Assembly (NCBI RefSeq): GCF_000827125.1
Contig: NZ_CP010311.1
Coordinates: 1,674,001-1,738,000 of the forward strand
DNA: 64,000 bases
Reading direction: 5' to 3'
Origin: Geoalkalibacter subterraneus
Lineage (GTDB): Bacteria > Desulfobacterota > Desulfuromonadia > Desulfuromonadales > Geoalkalibacteraceae
Each line of letters begins with the position of its first letter. Within the stretch, counting starts at the first letter, position 1. Under the pieces are notes generated by a model. That model saw nothing but the letters and a program-made list of their open reading frames with translations, did not search any database and was not told where the DNA came from. Of this stretch, positions 54,615 to 64,000 are shown in pieces. The position numbers and the translations under genes are program-made.

Positions 54615-55049
54615 ATGATAATGGAATTTTCTGATATTACTGAGGAAATTATAGGATGTGCATATAGAGTTTACTCTGTTTTGGGGTTCGGATTTCTGGA
54701 AAGTGTATATGAAAAGTCACTTGCTGTTGAATTTGACAAAGTCGGTCTGAAAGCAAATTTTCAAAAACCTATTGATGTTTTTTACAAAGGTCAGAATGTT
54801 GGAAACTTTATCGCCGATGTGTTGGTCGAGGATAACGTGATTGTGGAATTGAAGTCTGTCAGAGGATTGACTAAAAGCCATGAAGTGCAAATTGTCAATT
54901 ATCTTGCAGCCACACAAAAGCCTGTGGGGCTACTGATCAATTTCGGCGAAAATCGTGTTGACATAAAACGAAAGGTTTGGAAATTGCCAAAATTCTCTGA
55001 TTTCCATCCAGTCAATCCTGTTAATCCTGTCAGAGGTTTTGAGGTTTGA
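54615..55049 (+). CDS. GxxExxY protein (PD-(D/E)XK nuclease-like)
   Basis: A 144-residue protein with the naming motif GFGFLESVYEKSL and a PD-(D/E)XK-like site FIADVLVEDN ... VIVELKSV (Asp, Glu-x-Lys). Biochemical function is unknown. By eye its base composition is more A+T-rich than the EPS genes around it. It sits between inverted family A arms (54586-54611 and 55006-55031), and the right arm encodes its tail HPVNPVNPV. It overlaps the next gene's TTG start by 4 nt. It separates two otherwise adjacent EPS genes, which suggests insertion. Confidence 0.85.
   Translation: MIMEFSDITEEIIGCAYRVYSVLGFGFLESVYEKSLAVEFDKVGLKANFQKPIDVFYKGQNVGNFIADVLVEDNVIVELKSVRGLTKSHEVQIVNYLAATQKPVGLLINFGENRVDIKRKVWKLPKFSDFHPVNPVNPVRGFEV
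55006..55031 (-). repeat. family A right arm inside the GxxExxY gene end
   Basis: ATCCAGTCAATCCTGTTAAT followed by CCTGTC, the inverse of the left arm at 54586. It is in frame within the gene and codes its last residues. Confidence 0.9.
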
Positions 55050-57730: not shown

Positions 57731-58978
57731 ATGAAGATTCTCCACATCCTCGATCACAGTCTCCCGCTGCACAGCGGCTACACCTTCCGCAGCCAGAACA
57801 TTCTGCGTGCGCAGCGCCGGATGGAGTTCGATCCGGTTGTTGTCACTTCACCCAAACATGAAGAAGGCACCGGTGAAGACGGGCCGACCATCGAGCAGAT
57901 CAACGACTTCATCTATTACCGCACCGGCGGAGCGCGCACCTTCCCCGTTCCCCTGGCAAGCGAAGCCTGGCTCATGCACAAGCTTTCGCGCCGCATCATT
58001 GAAGTCGCGCGCATCGAGCAACCCGATATCCTCCATGCGCACTCGCCCATTCTCAACGCCATCCCTGCCTTGTGGGCCGGGCGCAAACTGGAACTGCCTG
58101 TGGTGTATGAAATCCGCGCATTCTGGGAAGATGCCGCCGTCGATCACGGCACCTACGCCGAAGGATCGTGGAAATATAAATTGACGCAATCTCTGGAAAC
58201 CATGGTCTGCACCCGCGCCGACCAGGTCGCCATTCTCTGCAACGGTCTCAAGGAGGATCTGGTGCGACGCTGCATCCCCAGTGACAAAATCACTCCCGTC
58301 TTCAATGGAGTCGATCCGCAGGATTTTAAATCTTCCCCGCCCGATGCCGAATACCAGCAGCAGTGGGGGCTTGCCGGCAAAACCGTGATCGGCTTTATCG
58401 GCTCCTTTTATCGCTATGAAGGCCTCGATCTGCTGGTGCGCGCCTTTGCCGATGCCTGTCGGGAGCGTGAAGACGCCGTTCTTCTGCTGGTCGGCGGCGG
58501 CGAAACCGAGAACGAATTGAAAAAACTCGTGGAAGAACTCGGAATCGGTGACCGGGTGATCATGCCCGGCCGCATCCCCCATGAGCGCATCCCCGGCGTG
58601 TATGCCCTGGTCGACGTCCTGGCCTATCCGCGCAACCCCATGCGATTGACCGAGCTGGTCACGCCCCTGAAGCCCCTCGAAGCCATGGCCATGGGTAAAG
58701 TGCTGATCGCCAGCGATGTCGGCGGCCACCGCGAGCTGATCCAACACGGCCAGAACGGCCTGCTTTTTCCCGCCGGCAACGGCGACGCCCTGGCCCAGGC
58801 CCTGAGCGACGTCCTCAGCGATACGCAGCTCTGCGACCACATCCGGGCCCATGCTCCGGAATGGGTGGTAAAATATCACAGCTGGCAGAAGACGACGGCG
58901 GTGTACAGGGATATTTACGCCAAGGCGCTGCATACAGAAAAAATTCTTGAACCACAGAGCGCACAGGGGAAGAGCTGA
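57731..58978 (+). CDS. glycosyltransferase, exosortase A-associated (second type)
   Basis: A 415-residue GT-B enzyme with the subgroup start MKILHILDHSLPLHSGYTFR, then YEIRAFWEDAAVDHGTYAEG and a GT4-type donor site (GFIGSFYRYEGLDLLVRAFA, PRNPMRLTELVTPLKPLEAM). It adds a sugar to the EPS repeat unit. It is the last recognised gene of the EPS locus in this window; neither exosortase nor asparagine synthase homologue follows. Confidence 0.9.
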   Translation: MKILHILDHSLPLHSGYTFRSQNILRAQRRMEFDPVVVTSPKHEEGTGEDGPTIEQINDFIYYRTGGARTFPVPLASEAWLMHKLSRRIIEVARIEQPDILHAHSPILNAIPALWAGRKLELPVVYEIRAFWEDAAVDHGTYAEGSWKYKLTQSLETMVCTRADQVAILCNGLKEDLVRRCIPSDKITPVFNGVDPQDFKSSPPDAEYQQQWGLAGKTVIGFIGSFYRYEGLDLLVRAFADACREREDAVLLLVGGGETENELKKLVEELGIGDRVIMPGRIPHERIPGVYALVDVLAYPRNPMRLTELVTPLKPLEAMAMGKVLIASDVGGHRELIQHGQNGLLFPAGNGDALAQALSDVLSDTQLCDHIRAHAPEWVVKYHSWQKTTAVYRDIYAKALHTEKILEPQSAQGKS

Positions 58979-59003
58979 GAAACCATAAGGCTGGAAAGGC
59001 TTT

Positions 59004-59207
59004 TAACACGAAGACACGAAGGAAAAGGACATAGGCGTATTGTCCACGGAAAACACGGAAAGCACGGAATTAGAACCAAAAGAAGGGGCATGAGAGGTTA
59101 ATAATCCATGAATTTATGCTTCCCTTCGTGCCTTCGTCTTAAGAAAAGATTGGGTTTTCTGATTTTGAATTTTTTTCCGTGTCTACCGTGCTTTCCGTGG
59201 ACCAGAA
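59004..59207. repeat. interleaved inverted arms of two repeat families
   Basis: Left arm CACGAAGACACGAAGG (about 59007) and left arm TCCACGGAAAACACGGAAAG (about 59043) are followed by right arms CCTTCGTGCCTTCGTC (about 59133) and TTCCGTGTCTACCGTG... GTGGACC (about 59176-59203). The order L1 L2 R1 R2 is interleaved, not nested. The whole gene-free stretch 58979-59440 consists of such repeats plus the element at 59252. Confidence 0.8.
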
Positions 59208-59251
59208 AAAGATTGTGATGTTGTGTTCTTTCTCAGTGGTGAAAAAACATT

Positions 59252-59330
59252 GACAGGATTAACAGGAATGACAGGATTTTAAAACCACAACCGATTTTGA
59301 TTGATCCTGTCCATCCTGTAAATCCAGTCG
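59252..59330. repeat. family A element, complete copy
   Basis: Left arm GACAGGATTAACAGG..., spacer with ACCGATTTTGATT, right arm GATCCTGTCCATCCTG... ending CCAGTCG; 79 nt. Confidence 0.9.
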
Positions 59331-59415
59331 GATTTTGCTTTTCAGTTTTGCACAGGCGTATTTTCCGTCCCGTTGATTAGTTTGTGATGTGTTTTCTTTT
59401 GTGGTACAGTATTCA

Positions 59416-59426
59416 GTACATGTACA
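59416..59426 (+). promoter_or_regulatory. putative YefM-YoeB operator
   Basis: GTACATGTACA contains the TGTACA hexamer reported as the core of YefM-YoeB operators, within a 10-bp perfect palindrome (59416-59425) 17 nt before the antitoxin start. Confidence 0.55.
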
Positions 59427-59442
59427 AAAAGGAGGTCAGCAC

Positions 59443-59694
59443 ATGGAAGCTATTTCGTACACCAACGCAAGAAGCAACTTAGCAAAAACAATGGAAAAAG
59501 TCTGCGAAGACCATGATCCTGTCATTATCACACGCCGGAACGAAAGCTCGGTTGTTATGATGTCTCTTGAAGATTACCAAGCTCTTGAAGAGACTGCGTA
59601 TTTGCTGAGAAGCCCTAAAAATGCTCGACGTCTTTTGGAGTCGATTGCTCAGTTAGAGTCTGGTGACGGTGCTGAGCGGGAGCTTACTCGGTGA
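59443..59694 (+). CDS. yefM: YefM-type (Phd/YefM) antitoxin
   Basis: An 83-residue antitoxin with the family N-terminus MEAISYTNARSNLAKTMEKV, DPVIITRRNESSVVMMSLED and YLLRSPKNARRLLESI. It binds YoeB through its C-terminus and DNA through its N-terminus. The frame begins earlier (59389), but AAGGAGG is spaced for the ATG at 59443. It overlaps the yoeB GTG start by 4 nt. Confidence 0.94.
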   Translation: MEAISYTNARSNLAKTMEKVCEDHDPVIITRRNESSVVMMSLEDYQALEETAYLLRSPKNARRLLESIAQLESGDGAERELTR

Positions 59695-59945
59695 AGCTCA
59701 TATTTTCCGAAAATGCTTGGGATGACTACCAGTATTGGATAAAAACCGATAAGAAGATCCTCAAGCGGGTGAACGCATTGATTCAGGATATACAGCGTTC
59801 ACCTTTTTCTGGTACCGGGAAGCCCGAACCATTGAAACATGGTCTTTCCGGCTATTGGTCCAGGCGAATTAACGATGAACACAGAATCGTTTATAAAGCT
59901 ACGGATGACTCCATTTTCATTGCTCAGGTCCGCTACCACTATTGA
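59691..59945 (+). CDS. yoeB: YoeB-type mRNA interferase toxin
   Basis: An 84-residue toxin starting at GTG 59691 inside the antitoxin stop. It shows the YoeB pattern: MKLIFSENAWDDYQYW, GTGKPEPLKHGLSGYWSRR, NDEHRIVYK and the C-terminal catalytic VRYHY. It cleaves mRNA on the ribosome by family knowledge. All conserved positions I can check are intact, so the pair is probably functional. Confidence 0.94.
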   Translation: MKLIFSENAWDDYQYWIKTDKKILKRVNALIQDIQRSPFSGTGKPEPLKHGLSGYWSRRINDEHRIVYKATDDSIFIAQVRYHY

Positions 59946-60010
59946 TTTTCGCACGTAACAAGGAATTAGAACCAAAAAAAAAGAATTCTGATTTTCCAGA
60001 TTTTGAATTT

Positions 60011-60091
60011 TTCCGTGATTTCCGTGATTTCCGTGATTTCCGTGATTTCCGTGATTTCCGTGATTTCCGTGATTTCCGTGATTTCCGTGGA
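60011..60091 (+). repeat. 9-bp minisatellite TTCCGTGAT x8 plus TTCCGTGGA
   Basis: Eight perfect consecutive units (60011-60082) and a terminal variant unit. It is an expanded right arm of family B (elsewhere 2-4 units), sitting 33 nt upstream of a toxin-antitoxin operon. Confidence 0.97.
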
Positions 60092-60123
60092 CCAGAAAAA
60101 GATTTTCCAGGATTGGAGATATT

Positions 60124-60312
60124 ATGCCAGTAACAGCCAAAGAAAAAATGACCGAAGTGATCCAATCACAACCCGACGATGCCTCTTATGATGAGATTTT
60201 GCGGGAACTGGCCTTTGAACGCATGGTTGACCGCGGCATGTCAGATTTTCGTAACGGTCATGTTGTCACGAATGAAGAAATGGAACACAGGATTCGAACA
60301 TGGCAAAAATAA
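60124..60312 (+). CDS. small antitoxin of a RelE/ParE pair
   Basis: A 62-residue acidic protein (DASYDEILRELAFERMVDRG, then VTNEEMEHRIRTWQK) typical of short antitoxins encoded before RelE/ParE toxins. The DNA-binding family is not certain. GGATTGGAGA precedes the ATG. It overlaps the toxin gene by 13 nt. Confidence 0.8.
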   Translation: MPVTAKEKMTEVIQSQPDDASYDEILRELAFERMVDRGMSDFRNGHVVTNEEMEHRIRTWQK

Positions 60313-60596
60313 TTTGGACGTCCGAAGCCGAACGTTGGCTAAGGGACATCTACGATTATATTGCCGAAGATAATCCACAAGCGGCCAAAAAGGTAGTCAA
60401 CGGTATATTTCAAAAAGCGCAGATATTGTTGACATTTTCCGAGACAGGTCACAGATATCGAACCGAATCTGAGGGTGAAGTCAGGATTCTCCTGTACGGT
60501 CACTATCGGATTGCGTATTTGTGGTCGTCGGGAAAGGATGTTGTTGTCTTGGGAGTATTCCATGGAGCTTTGGACATCAACCGGTATCTGATTTGA
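60300..60596 (+). CDS. RelE/ParE-family toxin
   Basis: A 98-residue ParE/RelE-fold protein: IIWTSEAERWLRDIYDYIAE, DNPQAAKKVVNGIF, GHRYRTESEGEVRILLYGHY, RIAYLW and VFHGALDINRYL. Whether it targets gyrase (ParE) or mRNA (RelE) is not decidable by eye. It is translated from inside the antitoxin gene end. Confidence 0.87.
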   Translation: MAKIIWTSEAERWLRDIYDYIAEDNPQAAKKVVNGIFQKAQILLTFSETGHRYRTESEGEVRILLYGHYRIAYLWSSGKDVVVLGVFHGALDINRYLI

Positions 60597-60627
60597 GTGG
60601 TGAGAAGACTTCAGGTTTTTGACTATA

Positions 60628-60663
60628 TTCCGTGCTTTCCGTGCTTTCCGTGCTTTCCGTGGA
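60628..60663 (+). repeat. family B right arm: TTCCGTGCT x3 plus TTCCGTGGA
   Basis: Four 9-nt units between the RelE/ParE toxin and the mntA gene. The mntA reading frame extends back into it, but that part is repeat-coded and not counted. Confidence 0.93.
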
Positions 60664-60676
60664 CCAGAAAAACAAC

Positions 60677-61075
60677 ATGAAACCTGACAAAATGATCGAC
60701 ATCATCAACCGCACCCTGGCCGACTTCCCCGAAGTGCGCTTCTGCACTCTGTTCGGGTCCGCCGCCCAGGGGCGTCTGACCGCACACAGCGATATCGATA
60801 TCGCCGTCGCAGCACAGCGGAAATTAACACCGGAATACAAGGTCCGGTTATCCCATACACTCTCTTCCGCGTTGAAAAGAGAAGTCGACCTCGTCGATCT
60901 GCAGGAAGTGTCCGGCCTGATCCTCGAACAGGCTCTGTGCAAAGCGGTTATCGTCAAAAATGATGATCACGAACTCTACGCCCGTTTACTCAAACGCCTC
61001 TGGTACAACCAGTCCGACATGATGCCGTATGTCAAACAGATCCTCGAGCAAAGGAGCAGCAATTGGCTTCAATGA
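60677..61075 (+). CDS. mntA: MntA-type nucleotidyltransferase antitoxin
   Basis: A 132-residue minimal nucleotidyltransferase with the complete GSX10DXD motif (FGSAAQGRLTAHSDIDIAV). In characterised pairs, MntA silences HepT by AMPylating a tyrosine. The ATG at 60677 is the first after the repeat. It overlaps hepT by 13 nt. Confidence 0.88.
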   Translation: MKPDKMIDIINRTLADFPEVRFCTLFGSAAQGRLTAHSDIDIAVAAQRKLTPEYKVRLSHTLSSALKREVDLVDLQEVSGLILEQALCKAVIVKNDDHELYARLLKRLWYNQSDMMPYVKQILEQRSSNWLQ

Positions 61076-61491
61076 TCCTCCTGACCAAACTCGACGCATT
61101 GCAGCGGTGCCTGGCGCGTGTCAAAGCTAAAACGCCTGAAAACGCCGCCATCTTGCAGCAGGATCTCGACCTTCAGGATATTATCTCCGTCAACCTGGAG
61201 CGTGCCGTACAATCCTGCGTCGACATTGCAGCACACGTGATCGCACAGCACAACACGACAGCACCGAGTACCATGGCAGAGAGTTTCAATCGATTGCACG
61301 ACCTGGGAGTGATTTCAGAGAATACGGCAGAAAGAATGAAAAACGCCGTCGGCTTCCGCAACATCTCGGTGCATGAGTACCAGAAAATCGACTGGAATAT
61401 TGTCTATCGCATTATCACCGAGCATCTTGACGATTTTAAGGATTTTGCCCGGCAAGTGCTGAAATGGGCTGATGAACATGAATCGAAATAA
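61063..61491 (+). CDS. hepT: HepT-type HEPN toxin
   Basis: A 142-residue HEPN ribonuclease with the RX4HXY motif RNISVHEY (catalytic Arg and His, and the Tyr that MntA modifies). Start TTG 61063 is spaced 7 nt from AAGGAG; ATG 61072 is the alternative. The motif is intact, so the module is probably active. Confidence 0.9.
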   Translation: MASMILLTKLDALQRCLARVKAKTPENAAILQQDLDLQDIISVNLERAVQSCVDIAAHVIAQHNTTAPSTMAESFNRLHDLGVISENTAERMKNAVGFRNISVHEYQKIDWNIVYRIITEHLDDFKDFARQVLKWADEHESK

Positions 61492-61546
61492 GATTTGCCA
61501 CCAAGGCACGAAAAAAAGTAAAGGACAGGTCGCGAAGAAAACCTTT

Positions 61547-61625
61547 GACAGGATTAACAGGAAATACAGGATTTTATAACCACAATCGATTTTGATTGAT
61601 CCTGTTCATCCTGTTAATCCCGTCG
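61547..61625. repeat. family A element, complete copy
   Basis: GACAGGATTAACAGGAAATA..., spacer CACAATCGATTTTGATT, right arm ending TTAATCCCGTCG; 79 nt. The gap 61492-61804 has no gene. Confidence 0.92.
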
Positions 61626-61695
61626 CTTTGAGGATAGATTTTCAACCGCTGCGTCTTGCTCTTAAATCTCCGCGCCTTCGCGTTGAAAAGATTTT

Positions 61696-61729
61696 CTTGG
61701 TGCCTTGGAGCATCCTTGGTGCCTTGGTG
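61696..61729 (+). repeat. 8-nt-unit repeat (CTTGGTGC family)
   Basis: CTTGGTGC-CTTGGAGC-AT-CCTTGGTG-CCTTGGTG; a second copy lies at about 62122-62152. Confidence 0.85.
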
Positions 61730-61804
61730 TTAAAAGGTTTTCTCCGCGCCCTCCGTGGTGAAAGCTTTAAAAACGAATACTCTCCATTTTGAGAGGAACA
61801 AAAA

Positions 61805-62056
61805 ATGAAAATCCTCGAAGTTGAAAAAATGAATAAAACTGAACGATTGCAGGCCATGGAAGAGCTTTGGGATTCATTTTTGCGGGAAGAAAATGAATTA
61901 GATTCCCCCCAATGGCATCAAGACATCCTGGAGAAGCGCAATTTTATCTGCGATCTCCGCGGTGAAAACATAGACAGGATTAACAAGAATTACAGGATTT
62001 TAAAATTACAATCGATTTTGATCAATCCTGTTCATCCTGTAAATCCTGTCGCTTAG
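61805..62056 (+). pseudogene. addiction-module antitoxin whose C-terminal half is replaced by repeat sequence
   Basis: Residues 1-46 (MKILEVEKMNKTERLQAMEE, then LWDSF and SPQWHQDILEKR) match the small addiction-module component family that normally precedes a RelE-type toxin. After LEKR the frame runs through repeat sequence; from 61973 it is a family A element, giving the tail LINPVHPVNPVA. The expected toxin-binding C-terminus and the toxin gene are absent. It is probably a remnant, although the frame is open and AGGAAC precedes the ATG. Confidence 0.75.
61973..62051. repeat. family A element inside the antitoxin remnant
   Basis: GACAGGATTAACAAGAATTA... to CATCCTGTAAATCCTGTC; 79 nt, overlapping the 3' end of the antitoxin frame. 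Confidence 0.92.
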
Positions 62057-62174
62057 GGGTTTTCGATTGTGAAATTTTCAGTGTCTTCCGTGTTTTCTGT
62101 GGACAATAAAAAGATATTCTTGGTGCCTTGGAGCCTCTTTGGTGCCTTGGTGTTAAAAAGATTCTAAAAAAAGA

Positions 62175-62275
62175 CTCACGTAAAGCCGCAAAGACTTCAA
62201 AAGATATGAAAACTTTTTCTCAGAATTTTTTGTGTTTTCTTCGCGTCTTAAGAGAGCGCAGCGAACGGGCGTGAG
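62175..62275. repeat. CTCACG...CGTGAG inverted-arm element (family F)
   Basis: Left arm CTCACGTAAAGCCGCAAAG; right arm CTTCGCGTCTTAAGAGAGCG ending GGGCGTGAG. Units of 8 nt are visible. The gene-free stretch 62057-62303 holds this, a family B fragment and a CTTGGTGC repeat. Confidence 0.85.
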
Positions 62276-62303
62276 ATGATTTTATTTTTTTCCGAGGGGT
62301 TAA

Positions 62304-62549
62304 ATGTATTTTGAAATTATCGGGGCAATAAAAAATTCAAAAACAATTGCAATTGGTTCAAAAATCAGGGAGTTGCCCAGGCTTAAGAAAGCTTACGGCC
62401 CTGGCCGGTGGAGAAAGCGTAAAGGGATTGCTCAAATCCGCCTTGTTGATGGAAGCATTGTATCAGCAGAAATTCACTGGTACGAGGCAAGCGGGATCGG
62501 AAGGAAGGAATTTAAAATCAAGCGGTATTTGGAGAACGGTTATGATTAA
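62304..62549 (+). CDS. conserved hypothetical protein (first of a two-gene unit)
   Basis: An 81-residue basic protein, MYFEIIGAIKNSKTIAIGSK then LRKAYGPGRW-like (LKKAYGPGRWRKRKGIAQIR), HWYEASGIGRKEFKIKRYL. I recognise it as a recurrent small protein without known function, usually followed by the same partner as here. GAGGGG lies upstream. It overlaps the next gene by 8 nt. Confidence 0.7.
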   Translation: MYFEIIGAIKNSKTIAIGSKIRELPRLKKAYGPGRWRKRKGIAQIRLVDGSIVSAEIHWYEASGIGRKEFKIKRYLENGYD

Positions 62550-62772
62550 CACCAAGATAAAAGAACATTTTTTTGCCGTTTGCATACAAAATGATGGTTT
62601 CCCTGCGTCCCTTGAGAAGATGAAAATTTATGAAATTATTCCCGACGAAATCGCCAGGAAGCACAATCAATACAGGGTTGTTGACGAATCCGGCGAAGAT
62701 TACCTCTATCCTGATGAGCTTTTCGTCGTGATTGATCTTCCTGAAGCTGTCGAAAAAGCTGTCCAGGGTTGA
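62542..62772 (+). CDS. conserved hypothetical protein (second of a two-gene unit)
   Basis: A 76-residue acidic protein, FAVCIQNDGFPASLEKMKIY, IIPDEIARKHNQYRVVDESG, EDYLYPDELFVVIDLP. The frame is open upstream inside the previous gene, but ATG 62542 gives the compact form. Basic first partner plus acidic second partner in overlapping genes resembles a toxin-antitoxin layout, but no family evidence supports that. Confidence 0.7.
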   Translation: MINTKIKEHFFAVCIQNDGFPASLEKMKIYEIIPDEIARKHNQYRVVDESGEDYLYPDELFVVIDLPEAVEKAVQG

Positions 62773-62805
62773 ATGGAAAATACAGTGGATGACCTTAAAC
62801 CCAGA

Positions 62806-62911
62806 CTCACGCAAAGCCGCAAAGGCGCAAAGAGGTCAAAAGACTTGGAACCTTTTTTCGAGATTTCTTAGCGTCTTCGCGTCTTAAGAGAGCGCAGCGA
62901 ACGGGCGTGAG
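62806..62911. repeat. CTCACG...CGTGAG inverted-arm element (family F), second copy
   Basis: Left arm CTCACGCAAAGCCGCAAAGG with three CGCAAAG units at 8-nt period; right arm TCTTAGCG-TCTTCGCG-TCTTAAGA then GGGCGTGAG. It merges into the tandem array. Confidence 0.88.
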
Positions 62912-63757
62912 ATGATTTTGAATTTTTTCCGTGCTTTCCGTGGACCAGAAAAAGATTGTGATGTTGTGTTCTTTCTCAGTGGTGAAAAAACATTGACAGG
63001 ATTAACAGGAAATACAGGATTTCAGAAACCACAATCGATTTTGATTGATCCTGTTCATCCTGTAAATCCCGTCGCTTTAGGGTTTTGACATAAAAAGGTG
63101 GCTTACCTTCGTGTTTTCTTAGCGTCTTGGCGTCTTAAGAGAGCGCAGCGAACGGGCGTGAGATGATTTTGAATTTTTCCGTGATTTCCGTGCTTTCCGT
63201 GGACCAGAAAAGATTTTGATGTTGTGTTCTTTCTCAGTGGTGAAAAAACATTGACAGGATTAACAGGAAATACAGGATTTCAGAAACCACAATCGATTTT
63301 GATTGATCCTGTTCATCCTGTAAATCCCGTCGCTTTAGGGTTTTGACATAAAAAGGTGGCTTACCTTCGTGCTTTCTTAGCGTCTTCGCGTCTTAAGAGA
63401 GCGCAGCGAACGGGCGTGAGATGATTTTGAATTTTTCCGTGCTTTCCGTGGACCAGAAAAAGATTGTGATGTTGTGTTCTTTCTCAGTGGTGAAAAAACA
63501 TTGACAGGATTAACAGGAAATACAGGATTTCAGAAACCACAATCGATTTTGATTGATCCTGTTCATCCTGTAAATCCCGTCGCTTTAGGGTTTTGACATA
63601 AAAAGGTGGCTTACCTTCGTGTTTTCTTAGCGTCTTCGCGTCTTAAGAGAGCGCAGCGAACGGGCGTGAGATGATTTTGAATTTTTTCCGTGCTTTCCGT
63701 GGACCAGAAAAAGATTGTGATGTTGGTTTCTTTCTCAGCGGTGAAAATCAAGGTTTA
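62864..63757 (+). repeat. tandem array, about 3.5 copies of a ~250-bp composite unit
   Basis: Units begin with TTTCTTAGCGTCTT at 62864, 63115, 63373 and 63623 (periods 251, 258, 250). Each contains a family F right arm, a family B right arm (TTCCGTG units; the second copy has one more 9-nt unit), a common linker and, in the first three, a complete family A element (62995-63074, 63253-63332, 63503-63582). The fourth copy breaks off near 63757. No gene occurs in 62773-63776. Confidence 0.95.
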
Positions 63758-63776
63758 ATTTTTCAGGGTGAAGCTC

Positions 63777-64000
63777 ATGGGAAAAAAATGCATGACTCGA
63801 AAAGAGATCACACATTTTCTTCAAACCCATAAAAAGGAAATGGCGCGGCGATTCGGGATTCAATCCATCGGGTTATTTGGCAGCTACGCTCGCGACGAGG
63901 CCCGTGAAGACAGCGACATCGATATTGTCGTCATGCTTAATAGCGAGCATCTAGCCGATGATTATTTCGGTGTCCTGCATTACCTCGAGGACCACTTACA
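63777..64000 (+). CDS. MNT-type nucleotidyltransferase, cut by the window end
   Basis: The first 74 residues of a second minimal nucleotidyltransferase with GSX10DXD (LFGSYARDEAREDSDIDIVV). ATG 63777 follows GGGTGAAG; ATG 63792 is an alternative. A HEPN partner would lie beyond the window. It differs from mntA at 60677 outside the motif, so it is not a simple duplicate. Confidence 0.85.
   Translation, partial: MGKKCMTRKEITHFLQTHKKEMARRFGIQSIGLFGSYARDEAREDSDIDIVVMLNSEHLADDYFGVLHYLEDHL

Follow-up and report, generated by a model that had tools for sequence, protein, structure and literature searches.

A truncated antitoxin gene that runs into repeat sequence within a toxin-antitoxin island of Geoalkalibacter subterraneus

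If the plus-strand reading frame at 61805-62056 of the window (the whole stretch of 64,000 nucleotides analysed here) is an antitoxin gene, then it should carry a complete antitoxin domain and be followed by a toxin gene. What became of both? Coordinates and reading frame of the 83-residue ORF were verified against the sequence and the ORF listing, and direct reading of the sequence revealed a Shine-Dalgarno-like GAGAGGAA (61791-61798, plus strand) about 8 bases 5' of the ATG. A reading made from the letters of the DNA had assigned the first ~46 residues to an addiction-module antitoxin family. This assignment was borne out by PF09720 (Unstab_antitox), which matched residues 8-45 with an E-value of 9e-9 and 35.7 bits, above its cut-off of 23.3. 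Only profile positions 1-37 of 54 were covered, so the domain is incomplete, while TIGR02574 (NCBIfam) scored 15.1 bits against residues 6-45 and thus stayed under its cut-off of 31.9. In the alignment with homologues, conserved C-terminal columns such as G52 were absent from the ORF. These comparisons support the view that about 22 C-terminal residues of a PF09720-type antitoxin were lost and that repeat sequence stands in their place. A promoter and terminator scan of 61480-62320 remained near background, sequence searches found no match in plasmids and no relative in viral contigs, and the search of solved structures gave no relative either (best E-value 0.4, a ribosomal protein).

We then compared 61805-62056 with 18 homologues by nucleotide identity in codon register, using blocks of four codons. 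Mean identity was 46-80% per block through codon 44; codons 45 and 46 gave 44% and 56%, and codon 47 gave 4%. Accordingly, the antitoxin head comprises codons 1-46 (61805-61942, plus strand). From the other side, alignments with further repeat blocks of the surrounding island start at 61941 (against 59218 and 62961) or 61942 (against 61738), and a fourth begins only at 61958. Since similarity to homologues ends at codon 46 and similarity to repeats starts at 61941-61943, the junction can be placed to a few bases: the alignment to intact homologues proposed in the sequence-only reading puts the break at about 61939-61943 (plus strand). One base leaves some room. The copy of the repeat unit at the junction (unit e) has an A at pattern position 4, which is C in almost all of the copies listed. 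This A could be leftover antitoxin sequence (TTT ATC, Phe-Ile), which would move the break about 9 bases further right and would need a second small deletion.

To relate the break to protein structure, we used an AlphaFold2 model of the intact homologue L054, computed from 21 aligned sequences (mean pLDDT 83, pTM 0.38), with helices at residues 3-7, 11-27, 36-50 and 59-67. In this predicted model, the break falls within the third long helix (36-50) and removes the last one (59-67). Type II antitoxins usually hold their toxin by the C-terminal part. By analogy, the part lost here is the putative toxin-binding part.

Downstream of the junction, the ORF continues through 61943-62056 (plus strand) to a TAG at 62054-62056, as given by the ORF listing and frame analysis. 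The claim that these remaining ~37 codons are repeat-derived held, as they consist of one unit e copy and a family A element. Unit e (TTTNTCYGYGNYCTCYGYGGTGAAA, 61943-61967, plus strand) is a dispersed 25-bp sequence that pattern searches located at 7 places in the own genome (up to 2 mismatches) and in 40 of the 136 genomes of the order, while the reversed pattern occurred in 1 of 136. The palindromic family A element (61973-62054, plus strand) had been described as present for the most part. Repeat families, alignments to copies and folding correct this: it is complete, with both arms at ~61973-61998 and 62025-62054, and the family A stretch of the tail folds at z = -6.3 (0 of 200 shuffles as good). 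Further mosaic repeats lie on both sides of the gene on the plus strand, an upstream block at 61495-61763 (family A 61547-61630, unit d 61696-61729, unit e 61739-61763) and the remainder of the downstream block at 62077-62295 (units c, d, a and b).

The repeats belong to the island and not to the antitoxin. In extended coordinates 54000-68000 we counted 90 unit hits (taking overlapping patterns as separate hits) and none elsewhere in 1-73000, and the surroundings of 31 homologues contained 6 hits in 258 kb, with 2 in shuffled copies of the same sequences. The copies of unit e and family A that were inspected outside the island lie between genes or just past a stop codon; a single pattern match within a lipoprotein-like ORF (L099) looks like chance. 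Inverted pairs of unit e were found in L095, L096 and L098 (four altogether), while the copies at 61742 and 61946 show the plus arm alone. Many repeat units of the island share a 9-base period, and at 60011-60091 a 9-base repeat, TTCCGTGAT, is present in about nine consecutive tandem copies. A 262-base compound repeat occurs at 62917-63686 in three tandem copies (91-98% identical, spacing 250-258 bases), with two further copies beyond the end of the window. Rfam gave no family at gathering score on 58900-64000. A search of the open-access literature, made with repeat strings only, found no paper naming these repeats, and no open-access paper was found that joins GxxExxY, toxin-antitoxin and repeat.

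The tail of the ORF ends in NPVNPV, and the recurrence of this motif at the end of a GxxExxY protein had been pointed out. We analysed the reading frames of the repeat itself. Of the 8 forward copies of family A in the extended window, 7 leave the PVHPVNPV frame open across both arms, and none leaves either of the two other forward frames open. Since the other forward frames are closed, any frame crossing the whole of family A on that strand must end in PVHPVNPV. The recurrence is forced by the repeat and carries no information, which removes the NPVNPV tail as an apparent sign of a shared protein feature. With one forward frame open in 7 of the 8 copies, an open tail of 37 codons is in itself unsurprising. 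The GxxExxY protein (54615-55049) gained a repeat-derived C-terminal tail with its domain whole (TIGR04256 positions 1-116 of 116 across residues 7-121), whereas in the antitoxin the domain itself is cut. Another repeat-derived tail possibly exists in the glycosyltransferase, the last ~13 residues of which (58936-58978) are unmatched in relatives (best match ending at 403 of 415) and coincide in part with a weak hit to unit e.

With the antitoxin cut, we looked for its toxin. The best match to the head among 58 genomes was found in the same taxonomic family (L010, 51% identical over the head), where a 68-residue antitoxin is followed, with an overlap of 4 bases, by a toxin-like gene of 102 residues. 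In total, 31 homologues came from named genomes of Desulfobacterota, Methylococcales, Brocadiaceae, Verrucomicrobia and others. The usual antitoxin C-terminus is reached in 28 of these, and the repeat tail is present in none; homologues sharing it, with a functional toxin elsewhere, are what the sequence-only reading had named as evidence against itself. In twenty, a single frame covers most of the toxin (nearly all of it in 19, 83% in L081), in five the toxin is partial or frameshifted (L058, L064, L066, L073, L079), and in six it was not detected (L061, L063, L069, L077, L080, L084). Thus, 11 of 31 are without a whole toxin, and toxin loss is frequent among homologues of this antitoxin. That no toxin follows in G. 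subterraneus was confirmed by tblastn with 15 homologous toxins, which gave no credible hit in extended coordinates 58900-65200 (best E-value 0.037, on the other strand and away from the antitoxin); the adjoining toxin gene of a type II module is absent at 61805-62056. Elsewhere in the own genome, the L010 toxin has only distant relatives, with identities of 48% and 26%, besides a third, marginal hit. The 48% relative (genome 3240524-3240811, the match spanning one TAG) adjoins the other PF09720-like antitoxin of this genome.

The gene lies within an island of toxin-antitoxin modules that extends from 59443 to the window end at 64000 and on to about extended coordinate 64419 (L020 10420), with four apparently intact pairs and mosaic repeats between. 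YefM (59443-59691) is directly followed by a YoeB-like frame, recognized by inspection and not by family search. A RelB-like/ParE pair (60124-60596) and an MntA/HepT pair (60674-61491) come next, and an MNT-like/HepT pair, its MNT-like frame again found by inspection, runs past the window end. A gene pair at 62304-62772 has no significant Pfam or NCBIfam match. The idea of an island with several orphan halves was rejected upon inspection, as the YoeB-like frame follows YefM and the MNT-like frame precedes the second HepT. We take the island to lie downstream of a glycosyltransferase-like gene in an apparent exopolysaccharide cluster, in a slot between this glycosyltransferase (57731-58978) and what is presumably a TIGR03790-like gene (genome 1739146-1740837); these names were assigned by reading the sequences and, for the last gene, its position.

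The two genes flanking the slot lie close together in G004, G005 and G053 as well, and in relatives the place downstream of the glycosyltransferase (L085, L086, L087, L089, L091) holds differing toxin-antitoxin-type or GxxExxY genes. Beside the glycosyltransferase, G004 encodes an AbiEii-like nucleotidyltransferase (under the Pfam cut-off) and a HEPN gene, while G005 encodes an HTH/ParE pair together with a nucleotidyltransferase, the compared part of which is the same as in G004. GxxExxY was found among larger genes in G053 and one gene further on in G010. The G003 slot contains an MntA/HepT pair with 78% nucleotide identity to that of the window over 800 bases. Despite this similarity, the repeats of the window island gave no hit in L091. 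An unbroken PF09720 pair was seen in none of the slots of G003 (where the contig ends within the slot), G004, G005, G010 and G053, nor at this locus in any other relative searched, the 58 and 136 genomes including none of the same genus.

How, then, did an antitoxin gene come to end in a repeat? Most likely this is an ordinary broken gene, the remnant of a pair of PF09720 antitoxin and ParE-like toxin that deletion or illegitimate recombination joined to a repeat block (probability roughly 0.78). The pair would once have been whole within the array of toxin-antitoxin modules, and such an event would have fused codon 46 with the left border of the downstream repeat block. The frame enters the block at this border and stops at the far edge of the palindromic element, and we read the tail as a by-product of an open frame in a 9-base-periodic repeat. 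The 83-residue product is probably not a working antitoxin, because its C-terminal part is missing and there is no longer a partner that could maintain selection on it. The lone plus arms of unit e would be consistent with a deletion that removed the left arm; however, the lone arm at 61742 has no broken gene beside it. Against a remnant speak the possibly leftover A in unit e and the lack of the unbroken pair at this locus in any relative searched. Moreover, frame and ribosome-binding-like site are intact and translation is possible, as would be expected if the chimera were a working protein, that is, a solitary regulator or an anti-addiction antitoxin with a new tail. We consider this very improbable, since the conserved C-terminal columns are gone, no homologue has the same tail, and identity over the head reaches no more than 62% in the homologues found.

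The sequence-only reading had taken the locus as direct evidence that the elements insert into, or recombine within, coding sequence. One precisely placed junction between gene and repeat shows that rearrangements in this repeat-rich island can reach coding sequence. Insertion is not demonstrated, because the repeat is not followed by a second gene half and the other inspected copies are located between genes. A mobile palindromic element or composite block could have inserted at codon 46, with later loss of the displaced half and the toxin. In favour of such an insertion, the end of the gene coincides precisely with the edge of a unit, and palindromic elements inside reading frames are already known elsewhere (described in part of PMC10969869). 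As in the Rickettsia palindromic elements and MITE-like in-frame elements, a short palindromic repeat is found within an ORF and is read in frame. But those elements are insertions into genes that continue, whereas the present gene stops within the repeat and has lost its remainder: beyond the ORF we found more repeat up to about 62295, followed by the gene pair at 62304-62772. As neither the displaced half nor the toxin is present beyond the block, and as two events would be required, we regard insertion as unlikely. Deletion or illegitimate recombination is preferred, since an insertion should leave the remaining gene half on the far side of the element. A deletion with its endpoint at the edge of a repeat accounts for the observed junction. 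An assembly error at a repeat is extremely improbable. Assemblies do break at repeats, and contig C13 of G003 ends just past MntA/HepT, but the genome studied here (3.7 Mb) is assembled into 2 contigs with 99.99% completeness, and the junction joins unique antitoxin sequence to a block copy unlike all others in the island.

The preferred reading, a broken gene, was further compared with known systems. PF09720/TIGR02574 antitoxins with an overlapping ParE-like toxin share the same head of 45-46 residues with its ERL..ME.LW...P.WH....R pattern; in contrast, the ~22 C-terminal residues and the toxin are gone here, with repeat instead. Orphan or decayed type II antitoxins likewise lack a toxin, but in the present case the cut runs through the antitoxin and coincides with the border of a dispersed repeat. 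Orphan antitoxins are abundant in Klebsiella according to the consulted part of PMC7192599, while the consulted part of PMC2701414 contained nothing on this antitoxin family. The locus most likely represents the end stage of a decayed toxin-antitoxin pair, an outcome that is common.

On its own, such a remnant matters little, as toxin-antitoxin pairs decay often. The island is the better subject, with its four apparently intact pairs, its 9-base-periodic repeats and a slot occupied by other modules in relatives. A decidedly doubtful but wider idea is that the mosaic repeat blocks serve as joints for the capture, stacking and loss of toxin-antitoxin modules, making the island an integrase-less cassette array at an exopolysaccharide slot. 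If this were true, the junction between antitoxin and repeat would be a mis-joined cassette that records where joining happens.

Finally, we surveyed flanking repeats at the 31 named loci, 29 of which had enough flank. Direct repeats bracketing such antitoxin-toxin pairs in general were rejected, as 23 of the 29 loci were without notable repeats. Flanking direct repeats (scores 60-411) were detected at L055, L059, L075, L076 and L083, and weakly at L065; for L065 and L083, control window pairs of the same locus scored above the flanking repeats. The homologous antitoxin-toxin pair of L055, from a Methylococcaceae MAG, is intact and is bracketed by two direct repeats that are 459 bases long or longer.
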